A stretch of DNA of 64,000 bases from Bacillus sp. ISL-7 (GTDB taxonomy: Bacteria > Bacillota > Bacilli > Bacillales_B > DSM-18226): the NCBI RefSeq assembly GCF_018613065.1, contig NZ_JAGGQW010000035.1, positions 124,001-188,000 of the forward strand. Direction: 5' to 3'. Both the position numbers and the translations under genes were made by a program. The notes below the pieces were generated by a model. It did not search any database. It was not told where the DNA came from and saw nothing but the letters and a program-made list of their open reading frames with translations. This document shows positions 20,625-37,616 of this stretch, in pieces; position 1 is the stretch's first letter; every line of letters starts with the position of its first letter.

Positions 20625-20707
20625 TATATCAGCGCAAAATAGAGTTTTATCAGCGATTCCGAACCATTTATCAGCGATTATATATTTTTATCAGCGAAAT
20701 CGAAGTT
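20625..20707. repeat. Downstream array of ~21-bp repeats with core TATCAGCGA
   Basis: Four direct repeats with the core TATCAGCG (A or C next). TCAGCG starts at 20629, 20650, 20671 and 20691, i.e. spacings of 21, 21 and 20 bases. The ten to eleven bases between cores differ in each unit. The array abuts the stop codon of the NERD gene that follows (which runs on the minus strand). A matching array in the same orientation lies upstream of that gene. Confidence 0.85.
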
Positions 20708-21681
20708 TACCATGGTAAAGTCTTCGGAAAGTAAATGCGTCCCTTTTTTGTTCCCGAAAAATTCAGATTTACAGAAAGCAGTAATCTTTTTGCTGTATCA
20801 TGTGATTTTATTTGAGCAAACTCCCGAAACTGCTGATTTGTAATTTTCGAATCAAAGAGGAGAAAGTAATCTCTCAGGGTATTAATATGAGCATCTTTTG
20901 AAAATTTATCGCATGAAGAGCAGTACCATTTCTTTTTCACTCGAATAAGTGGAACATAATTGCAGTCAGGGCAGCAGACACCGGTTAATAAATCCGCTTT
21001 TTTAATTCCATACTTATTCAAAATATAACTTGTCGGTACCTTATTCAACTTTACAAGGAGTCGGCTCAGTTTTCGGAGATCTTTCGCATAAAGGAGAGGA
21101 TTAGTATATTGTTTTTCAAAAAACTGAATTTTATTTATGAATGCATCTGACTTACATATTCGCGGCTTCACTTTATGAGCATTTTTCCCGGTGATGACAT
21201 ATGAAGCATATCCATTGCTGATAACTACTAGATAATCAACTGGAACCTTAGGAAATTTATGTTCTGCCATCAGTTTTTCTATATACACTTTATGCCTTTC
21301 TGATTGAGCAATCGGATCAGGGTACCCTTTTTCCTTGTCATTGATTATTTGGGTAAACTGCTCATTATCTGTATCAAATATTAATTTACCAGTCATATTT
21401 TTCACTTCAATTATTAGGGCGAATTCTGGTGTGAGGAGAAGGGTATCAATTTGGCAGTTGTAGTCTCCATCAGGAAGGTTTAAATCGTGAAGGATCTGGT
21501 ATTTATCAATGGAAAGGAGACGTAAATAATAATCAAGACTCACCTCACCTTTGTATCCGGCATGCCTCCCCCCAAGCTCCTCTAAAATTTGCTGATACTT
21601 TGGGTAATTCAGAGGGAGACGCCGGCATAATGCCTCTAAAATTAGAATTACTAATGGAATTGTCCTTGCTTTTATGATCAA
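20707..21681 (-). CDS. NERD-domain nuclease-like protein with zinc ribbon
   Basis: A 324-aa protein with an N-terminal nuclease-related NERD domain: KGE, then NCQIDTLLL and IIEVKN form the putative PD-(D/E)xK-like catalytic set. A four-cysteine zinc ribbon follows (CCPDCNY and CSSCDK, about residues 235-257) and then a C-terminal helical segment that may be a DNA-binding helix-turn-helix. The preferred start is a TTG eight bases after AAAGGGG; an upstream ATG would add six residues. Function is unknown; relatives are called nuclease-related only. It sits between two repeat arrays, and a paralogue lies at 51298-52209. Confidence 0.85.
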   Translation of the reverse strand: MIIKARTIPLVILILEALCRRLPLNYPKYQQILEELGGRHAGYKGEVSLDYYLRLLSIDKYQILHDLNLPDGDYNCQIDTLLLTPEFALIIEVKNMTGKLIFDTDNEQFTQIINDKEKGYPDPIAQSERHKVYIEKLMAEHKFPKVPVDYLVVISNGYASYVITGKNAHKVKPRICKSDAFINKIQFFEKQYTNPLLYAKDLRKLSRLLVKLNKVPTSYILNKYGIKKADLLTGVCCPDCNYVPLIRVKKKWYCSSCDKFSKDAHINTLRDYFLLFDSKITNQQFREFAQIKSHDTAKRLLLSVNLNFSGTKKGRIYFPKTLPW

Positions 21682-21779
21682 ACCTAACACCCCTTTCATT
21701 TTACTACTATAATTCTGATCAAAGAATGAAATCCCTGCCGAATTTTAGCGAAATTTGTTAATAATATTTGTCTATTTAT

Positions 21780-21884
21780 TTTTTCAGCGCGAATGATTAA
21801 TTTATCAGCGAAGCTAGCCAATATATCAGCGATAACCCACCATATATCAGCGATAAATGCTATTTTATCAGCGAAGCGAAATTT
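21780..21884. repeat. Upstream array of exactly 21-bp-spaced repeats with core TATCAGCGA
   Basis: Five direct repeats in which TCAGCG starts at 21784, 21805, 21826, 21847 and 21868: four spacings of exactly 21 bases. Four units have TATCAGCGA plus A or T; the first is degenerate (TTTCAGCGC). About ten bases per unit are conserved and eleven are variable. The array lies between the NERD gene and the pheT terminator, in the same orientation as the array on the other side. Confidence 0.88.
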
Positions 21885-25509: not shown

Positions 25510-25795
25510 AAAAACAAAAAAACCCCATCCCTGGAAAGGGACGAGGTTTATAGTTCGCGGTACCACCCTTGTAAACACGTTATGTAAAGAAACATTGTGT
25601 TCGCTTCATTCGGATAACGGCATCTGCCGGTGCATCTTTACATTTTCGTTAGCGAAAATGGTCCCGATGCCAACTCAGGAGGTGAACTTCGCTTATCATT
25701 TCCATAAAAGTGCTTTCAGTCGCGGCACTTTCTCCCTAAATGGTCACTAAATAAGGTACTTTTCTCCGTCATCGTTCTTTAATATTCAATATTGT
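25510..25795 (-). ncRNA. T-box leader of pheST
   Basis: The minus strand carries the T-box sequence GGGTGGTACCGCG (complement of 25557-25569) directly before a terminator stem (AACCTCGTCCC / GGGATGGGGTT, about 25519-25550) ending in a T run. Its upstream part folds into a long stem I. A UUC (complement of 25684-25686) in the context GAAGTTCACC is the probable Phe specifier; that assignment is inference. Uncharged tRNA-Phe would favour the antiterminator and pheST expression. Confidence 0.92.
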
Positions 25796-34891: not shown

Positions 34892-35181
34892 TAGCCACCT
34901 CCAAGGTTTTATCACGAATACAACGTTTTGGTCAAGAAAATCATAAGGAACCCTTTTCAACCTAAACGTCTGACACCCTATTGAATCAACAGGTAGTAAA
35001 GCTTTTTAGCAGTGCTATTAAGTGAACAAACAAAAAAGTGCGGATGAATGCACCCACACTTTACAGAACATAAGTAATAAAACCAAAAAGTTCACGTAAA
35101 CCTGCCAACTGCCAATTGCGTCAATCAGGTGAGAAGCGGGTGCTTCTTCTTTTCCCAAAAACAAGTATTCAATTTTCCACC
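34892..35181 (-). ncRNA. infC leader (L20-binding autoregulatory leader)
   Basis: About 290 bases of leader between the promoter and infC contain a terminator hairpin (AAGTGTGG / CCGCACTT then TTTTTT; complement of about 35034-35062). This matches the known L20 leader architecture of Bacillus, where L20 stabilises the terminator and lowers infC-rpmI-rplT expression. The precise L20-binding pseudo-knot was not drawn here. Confidence 0.8.
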
Positions 35182-37334: not shown

Positions 37335-37616
37335 AAAAAAACCCGTCCCTGGAATAGGGACGAGTTTTGATAAACACGTGGTTCCACCCAATTTTTCATT
37401 TTCGAATGGCACACATTGAAAATGACTTTGGTCAGTTAACGGCTGTAGCCGTCAACAATTACTGACTTCATAGAAAACATGAAGTGTTCACTGCTGAAGT
37501 TTAAAGGTGGTAAGTATTATTTTCGTGTTAGGAGGCTTTCAGCCCTGTCCTCCCTCTCTAGAAACCGTAAAAAATACTGTTATCCTTATCATTACTTTTG
37601 CTATGAATATTCTATG
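37335..37616 (-). ncRNA. T-box leader of thrS
   Basis: The minus-strand T-box GGGTGGAACCACG (complement of 37377-37389) precedes a terminator stem (AACTCGTCCC / GGGACGGGTT; complement of about 37341-37365) ending in a T run. The upstream 200 bases form long helices (stem I). tRNA-Thr is the expected effector from the gene; the specifier codon could not be assigned with certainty. Confidence 0.9.

Follow-up and report, generated by a model that had tools for sequence, protein, structure and literature searches.

A NERD protein of Bacillus sp. ISL-7 and the phased DNA repeats beside its gene are best explained as a self-cognate pair, a reading to which we assign a probability of roughly 0.7. 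The window, the whole 64,000-nucleotide stretch that was analysed, carries two such arrays, one on each side of the gene. Arrays of this kind accompany NERD genes in many Bacillales, and their bases track the recognition helix of the neighbouring protein. Such helix-matched repeats suggest a system of protein and repeats that has not been described before, with copies at many places in the genome.

The preliminary description of this DNA had reported nine cores in a single orientation, four past the stop codon and five before the start. All nine are present on the plus strand (Table 1). Its claim that both arrays are phased at 21 bases stands for the upstream array, where every step is 21 and the cores start at 21782 (TTTCAGCGC), 21803, 21824, 21845 and 21866. 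It does not hold strictly elsewhere, as the outermost upstream core is degenerate and the last step of the downstream array, with cores starting at 20627 (TATCAGCGC), 20648, 20669 and 20689, is 20 bases. With at most one mismatch, TATCAGCGA occurs 27 times on the two strands of the window, compared with 10.86 occurrences expected (sd 3.16; maximum of 100 shuffles 20). We used an array detector that is motif-free and scores chains of 8-mers at 19-22 bp in flanks of at most 400 bp, with a threshold score of 28. Both window arrays reach this threshold.

Table 1. Features of the NERD locus, in positions of the window.
Feature	Position	Strand	Detail
Downstream phased array, four cores TATCAGCGC/A	20627..20697	+	spacing 21, 21, 20
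NERD gene	20707..21699	-	330 codons as listed; Pfam NERD match
C-terminal winged helix-turn-helix, residues 266-330	20710..20904	-	
Recognition helix, residues 300-309 (H300, K304)	20773..20802	-	AlphaFold and helix/core comparison
Zinc-ribbon cysteines 243/246/260/263	20911..20973	-	alignment of relatives
NERD domain, residues 47-161	21217..21561	-	Pfam and alignment
Leader, upstream array to gene	21700..21781	-	AACAAATTTCGcTAAAATTCGGCAGGgATTTC-like block repeated in several close relatives
Upstream phased array, five cores, outermost degenerate	21782..21874	+	spacing 21, 21, 21, 21

The gene was correctly described as encoding a NERD/zinc-ribbon protein. The window protein matches the Pfam NERD family (PF08378) with E=2.4e-23 and 83.2 bits, above the curated cut-off of 22.1, and its four zinc-ribbon-type cysteines are conserved. 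Of these, Cys 260 and Cys 263 never vary and the other two, Cys 243 and Cys 246, hardly do, in zinc-ribbon fashion. In the NERD domain, the PD-(D/E)XK-type motif residues E52, D85, K100 and Q132 are invariant in an alignment of 110 sequences, and position 98, a glutamate in the window protein, is variable (entropy 1.0 bit). Judged by its residues, the window protein carries the E...D...(D/E)xK motif of the PD-(D/E)XK superfamily. An AlphaFold model (mean pLDDT 92.1) has a C-terminal winged helix, with residues 300 and 304 both on helix 300-309. Fold matches include winged helices, among them CadC and BigR, which we take to be of the ArsR type, together with a weak resemblance to nuclease chains of Can2, Cdn1 and McrBC. 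Foldseek gave no match at E<=0.001, and a sequence search of solved structures gave a best E of 0.18.

The nearest named relatives of the window protein are mostly from Neobacillus. By Pfam, the gene lies between a pterin dehydratase gene, which adjoins an RNase HII-family gene, and pheT/pheS. It may start at an alternative TTG at 21681 (residue 7; region 21679-21699), because many relatives start at that position; with this start, ATGAAAGGGGTG would carry the ribosome-binding site. Between array and gene, the leader block AACAAATTTCGnTAAAATTCGGCAGG recurs, by eye, in several close relatives and does not clearly resemble a sigma-A promoter. The Rfam matches in the window are ordinary: two T-box leaders and an L20 leader at 25534-25781, 37353-37601 and 35026-35157, all on the minus strand.

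Arrays are found beside nearly all of the NERD genes that we collected. An array lies at most 400 bp away at 103 of 110 NERD loci of relatives, a non-random sample of which 30 loci were chosen by a tool and 80 by hand from a scored match list. At the same threshold, arrays were found in 0 of 218 dinucleotide-shuffled NERD flanks (maximum score 20), and the remaining genes of the window had arrays in 0 of their 108 flanks (maximum 16). The larger count covers 158 distinct NERD genes, that of the window included, drawn from Neobacillus and further members of the Bacillales; two loci with more than three stops (L037 and L228) and 31 duplicates had been removed beforehand. A 20/21-bp phased array lies within 400 bp of 145 of these genes, upstream in 116 cases and downstream in 81. 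An array is present at 42 of 48 newly added named loci, including loci from Neobacillus, Peribacillus, Fictibacillus, Virgibacillus, Salibacterium, Lentibacillus, Sporolactobacillus, Bhargavaea and Sporosarcina. Of the six loci that fall short, L236, L240, L243 and L244 do so barely, with scores of 26 or 27.

The preliminary description had proposed measuring how often arrays lie near NERD genes, and had named arrays at random distances and homologues free of repeats as evidence against a link. The association at 145 of 158 genes, with no array in either control, supports the link. Two of the conditions named call for caution, as many arrays are distant from every NERD gene and 13 of the 158 loci lack an array at threshold in flanks of up to 400 bp. 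The proposed helical phasing is borne out in relatives, as 7-mer recurrence in NERD flanks shows clear peaks only at lags of 20, 21 and 40-42. Among 197 arrays, a length of five units is the commonest (77), followed by six (51) and four (33). Some NERD arrays, those of L091, L156, L246, L248, L249, L253 and L255, reach 10-15 units, far above the usual five.

By eye, cores are mostly common to orthologues across species and distinct between paralogue groups. The groups have cores GTCCAAAAC, TTGGCGGAAT, GCGAGTAAA, AAAATGAGCCAAT and GTGGCnnATAA, and the window class has CGCnnATA. When the proteins were sorted by recognition helix, the cores were sorted too. We compared residue 300 with the second variable base of the core in the 144 well-placed arrays that have both the residue and a called base. 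Arginine goes with C in 25 of 35 arrays, isoleucine or valine with A in 33 of 39, and proline, histidine or serine with G in 47 of 48.

We ranked all 330 protein columns by leave-cluster-out prediction of the core bases, in a main test that omits the 50 of 197 arrays with a poor fit to the common template and in an all-array test that keeps them. For N2, column 300 ranked best at 90% clustering (0.847 vs 0.623 for the next column) and at 50% clustering (0.728 vs 0.641). It ranked second at 60% clustering (0.830 vs 0.900 for W330) and over all 197 arrays (0.636 vs 0.692 for I169). For N1, column 304 was best only at 90% clustering (0.719 vs 0.581) and fell outside the eight best columns at 60% clustering, at 50% clustering and over all 197 arrays. 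Because of these ranks across clustering levels, residue 300 looks like a fairly general determinant of the core and residue 304 like a local one, operating among closer relatives only.

The two arrays of a locus also agree with each other. Where both were scored, 36 of 42 loci have the same dinucleotide on the two sides (shuffle mean 6.5, maximum 15), as do 30 of 36 after thinning at 90%; the dinucleotides are unlike at 6 of the 42. Because related genomes do not count as independent observations, the p values in this work err on the optimistic side. The near-universal association, the group-specific cores and the helix-core correlation argue strongly for the earlier suggestion that the arrays are the target site of the NERD protein. 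Given these strong correlations, it is very likely that the protein reads its own array.

A natural test of this covariation is offered by the pheT/rnhC site of the window gene, which is shared by 16 of 56 named close relatives. At this site, helix SHDTAKR is found with CGCTGATA, SIHTAKR with CGCTAATA, and SDDIAKR or SEDTAKR with CGCCGATA, in each case on both sides of the gene; three of the 16 loci (L184, L189 and L204) have one array at threshold, and the upstream flank of L183 is cut. Between species, helix and flanking arrays vary together while the gene has not moved. The Neobacillus soli gene (L181/L034) combines a SIDTAGR helix and a downstream CGCAAATA array, the pairing of other SIDTAGR genes, with an upstream array that is still CGCTGATA. 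We read this locus as a specificity switch caught half-way.

A mobile element carrying the NERD gene was considered and rejected. The phage collection gave 0 matches and the plasmid collection 3 partial ones, at 24-34% identity and none covering 80%. The idea that the repeats are remains of the gene's mobilisation thus finds no support, with 16 of 56 relatives at one site and nothing close on phages or plasmids. The dispersed part is the arrays, not the gene.

Cognate arrays also occur at a distance from the gene, in intergenic gaps whose neighbouring genes are unrelated. We searched for pairs and triples of AATGAGCG, TATCAGCG and TATNNGCG at core spacings of 20-21. TATNNGCG triples number 721 in the 15 genomes searched, one of which has zero, compared with 18 for the reversed pattern. 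AATGAGCG pairs occur in 6 of 6 genomes whose window-class NERD has an SRxxxKR helix and in 1 of 42 others, as a single stray pair. These counts include pairs beside the NERD gene, each of the six genomes having at least one pair elsewhere, and the comparison left out the partial window-class genes of genomes G037 and G015 and locus L119, which has no readable helix. The search gave 62 real AATGAGCG pairs and 117 for the reversed control, which is larger because reversal yields GCGAGTAA, a core that belongs to a different class of arrays (L083, L106 and L121). The 117 GCGAGTAA pairs, at 20-21 bp in nine genomes, are another dispersed array class.

Pairs of TATCAGCG are present in 34 of 48 genomes, heavily in those with a matching helix and also in some without one. 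Seven genomes with a matching helix have 8 to 72 pairs, more than the 41 others (rank test p=1e-4), in a grouping made by hand from the helices with the related-helix genomes G002, G010, G011 and G014 placed among the 41. Genome G026 stands out with 70 TATCAGCG pairs, although we found no NERD gene of the window class in it; the NERD gene read there (L278) has another core, a GACGGGTA repeat of three units, below threshold. Genome G024 has four array classes (TATCGGCG, TATTAGCG, TATTTGCG and TATCTGCG) and a single window-class NERD gene that we found, leaving three classes with no recognised cognate.

We also examined two further cores in 29 genomes of the same genus, with nine-letter patterns at spacings of 20-21. 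For GTCCAAAAC, arrays are present in 7 of 7 genomes with a homologue of at least 67% identity and in 1 of 22 others; the lone pair of G021 may be due to chance, as the reversed control matched there too, and the count is 6 of 7 without it. TTGGCGGAA arrays occur in 7 of 7 genomes with a close homologue and in 3 of 22 others, a difference that depends on excluding 54-60% homologues as cognates (p=0.25 if they are included). The TTGGCGGAA arrays of G001, G026 and G028 have no close cognate. Outside the 29-genome count, one other-genus genome each has one or two pairs of GTCCAAAAC and TTGGCGGAA (G049 and G056). A close NERD gene is a good predictor of arrays. The converse prediction, from arrays to a NERD gene, is poorer, which would be expected if arrays outlive the gene or a cognate was missed.

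Array positions are inherited for a while and then turned over. A gap in common with a fetched G023 array was found for 5 of 7 fetched G013 arrays and 2 of 2 from G029, and for 0 of 11 from G041, G031 and G026. In three orthologous solo array pairs, summed after one near-identical pair was dropped, 4 of 120 core positions differ, compared with 21 of 114 spacer positions. The lower divergence of cores is suggestive only, because the arrays were found via exact cores and the test is biased accordingly. One intergenic gap holds a TTGGCGGAA array in G006 (L157) and a GTCCAAAAC array in another species, G008 (L173); the genes flanking it are presumably recD2/TPR-like and mnmA-like.

If the NERD protein were a plain autoregulated transcription factor, the array beside its gene would be an operator, the solo arrays would serve a regulon in the same way, and the nuclease fold would be vestigial. 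The upstream position of the array at 116 of 158 loci, a median of 112 bp ahead of the gene match, fits such a role, as do the ArsR-type winged helices among the fold matches. However, the fetched G023 arrays lie in convergent and tandem gaps by unrelated genes, with 2 of 18 in divergent gaps. Promoters in the interval from array to gene are not clearly in excess (34 of 116 vs 26 in shuffled sequence), and a promoter scan of the window found 3 vs 6.7 in shuffles. Array positions also turn over, with none of the 11 sampled G041, G031 and G026 arrays in a gap with a fetched G023 array, and the catalytic-type residues are kept. We regard this plain-regulator reading as unlikely.

The TTGGCGGAA arrays have a distribution of their own (L157-L167 in G006, L176, and G013/G023): they lie on nearly a single strand and are clustered over several hundred kb around the NERD gene. 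In the complete genome G006, 41 of 41 pairs are on the minus strand and 40 lie at 3.99-4.68 Mb, with the cognate gene at 4.676 Mb. In the complete genome G013, 13 of 14 pairs are on the plus strand, at 0.91-1.30 Mb, with the cognate gene at 0.914 Mb. The orientation of these arrays is independent of neighbouring genes. This strand bias and clustering hint at a chromosome-scale role and are the main reason for keeping a further alternative, in which NERD proteins would bridge or act on oriented arrays in a chromosomal neighbourhood, as part of a chromosome-organising or replication-polarity system. The window class does not fit this explanation, as its pairs in G023 have no strand bias (35 forward and 37 reverse) and are spread around the chromosome, and the linkage between gene and arrays could equally come from local duplication. 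Such a system seems to us improbable.

A genome can hold several diverged NERD paralogues (up to 15 matches), which, along with the weak fold resemblance to Can2, Cdn1 and McrBC chains, might suggest a defence or self/non-self device with orthogonal specificities. We think this quite improbable, since the best PADLOC match, PglW at E=0.093, does not identify a known anti-phage system, and the gene neighbours are housekeeping genes. The sole viral-contig match for TATCAGCG triples, in IMG/VR, likewise proved to be a seven-residue repeat in coding sequence, and arrays in viruses were rejected. It is very improbable that another factor binds the arrays and that NERD genes are merely adjacent: arrays with no recognised cognate exist, but core bases track NERD recognition-helix residues in both syntenic orthologues and distant paralogues, and no array lies in the 108 flanks examined around the remaining genes of the window.

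Two further readings were rejected. Twenty arrays folded on both strands as RNA gave z scores from -1.61 to 4.55, 27 of 40 above zero, and there is no Rfam match at the arrays. CRISPR repeats are about 23-50 bp long and alternate with spacers. The cores here are about 9 bp at a spacing of 20/21, and the four neighbouring genes scanned include no cas gene, so a CRISPR array was rejected because of size and neighbours. The preliminary description had rightly judged the cores too short for CRISPR; the CRISPR-like layout it saw is superficial, with no RNA fold and no Rfam match at the arrays.

Returning to the self-cognate pair, we propose that the PD-(D/E)XK-type NERD protein reads the phased array via its C-terminal winged helix, with several monomers side by side. 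The array commonly has five cores of 9-10 bp, one every two helical turns and all facing one side, and this spacing would line the docked units up along a single face of the helix, about five in a row. As residues 300 and 304 change in evolution, the arrays would follow, giving several NERD specificities per genome. An array beside the gene would make the system self-referential, and we put the chance that it lets the protein control its own expression at about even. Given the conserved PD-(D/E)XK-type residues, docking may license a cut or nick. In the weakest step of the proposal, this cut or nick at a docked array could lead to arrays being copied into new gaps. Our suggestion that the nuclease domain acts at or beside the arrays and helps them to arise and persist, as is thought for TnpA-REP/RAYT, is a tentative one. 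Equally speculative is the broader idea that NERD-winged-helix proteins are a new paralogous class of site-specific nucleases with a readable residue-to-base code, in which every protein maintains and spreads a chromosomal population of arrays of its own; the system would have arisen independently of REP/RAYT and would have switched specificity repeatedly.

If the code is true, an H300R substitution would move binding from CGCTGATA towards CGCTCATA cores, and the window protein would prefer its own array over CGCAAATA and CGCTCATT arrays. From sequence alone, one NERD branch acquires a probable target, a probable helix for reading it and a code open to testing. If borne out, the system would offer naturally occurring DNA-binding proteins that form an orthogonal series, and would account for a set of intergenic repeats in Bacillales.

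The NERD domain was described about two decades ago. We found no report of its DNA target in the literature, and among the open-licence PMC matches listed there is no description of the NERD-array pairing or of these intergenic repeats of Bacillales. Relative to the NERD family (PF08378), the cognate arrays and the specificity residues are new. Plasmid iterons lie next to the gene of the winged-helix replication initiator that binds them and are direct repeats some two helical turns apart. NERD arrays are likewise direct repeats at about two turns next to the gene of a winged-helix protein. Unlike iterons, they are chromosomal with many dispersed copies, and there is no replication-initiator domain among the Pfam matches of the protein. 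As a 2022 article puts it, no experimental study of NERD domain function existed to its authors' knowledge (PMC9040797).

The known arrangement whose logic appears closest to that of the NERD arrays is REP/RAYT. As described in the cited accounts, a chromosomal nuclease-type gene is flanked by its own repeats, which are class-specific, have many extragenic copies and co-evolve with it (PMC8266576, PMC3116915). The RAYT gene is given there as non-mobile and single-copy, with repeats in its flanks and class-specific copies genome-wide (PMC3116915, PMC8266576), and RAYT as a HuH transposase that acts on folded single-stranded palindromes (PMC8266576). We found no HuH (Y1) transposase among the three Pfam matches that the NERD protein has with E no greater than 1, namely NERD itself and two that fall below cut-off, and no palindromic hairpin repeats, the cores having one orientation and the lowest fold z score of 40 being -1.61. 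The NERD-array system is not a member of REP/RAYT because its enzyme is not HuH and its repeats are not palindromes. Unlike RAYT, the NERD protein has a zinc ribbon and a winged helix, and its arrays are non-palindromic, in one orientation, at 20/21 bp. Like REP/REPIN-RAYT (TnpA-REP, the "REPtron"), it has a gene beside its own short repeats, dispersed intergenic copies and several classes, and, if our reading is true, would represent a second, unrelated solution to the same arrangement.
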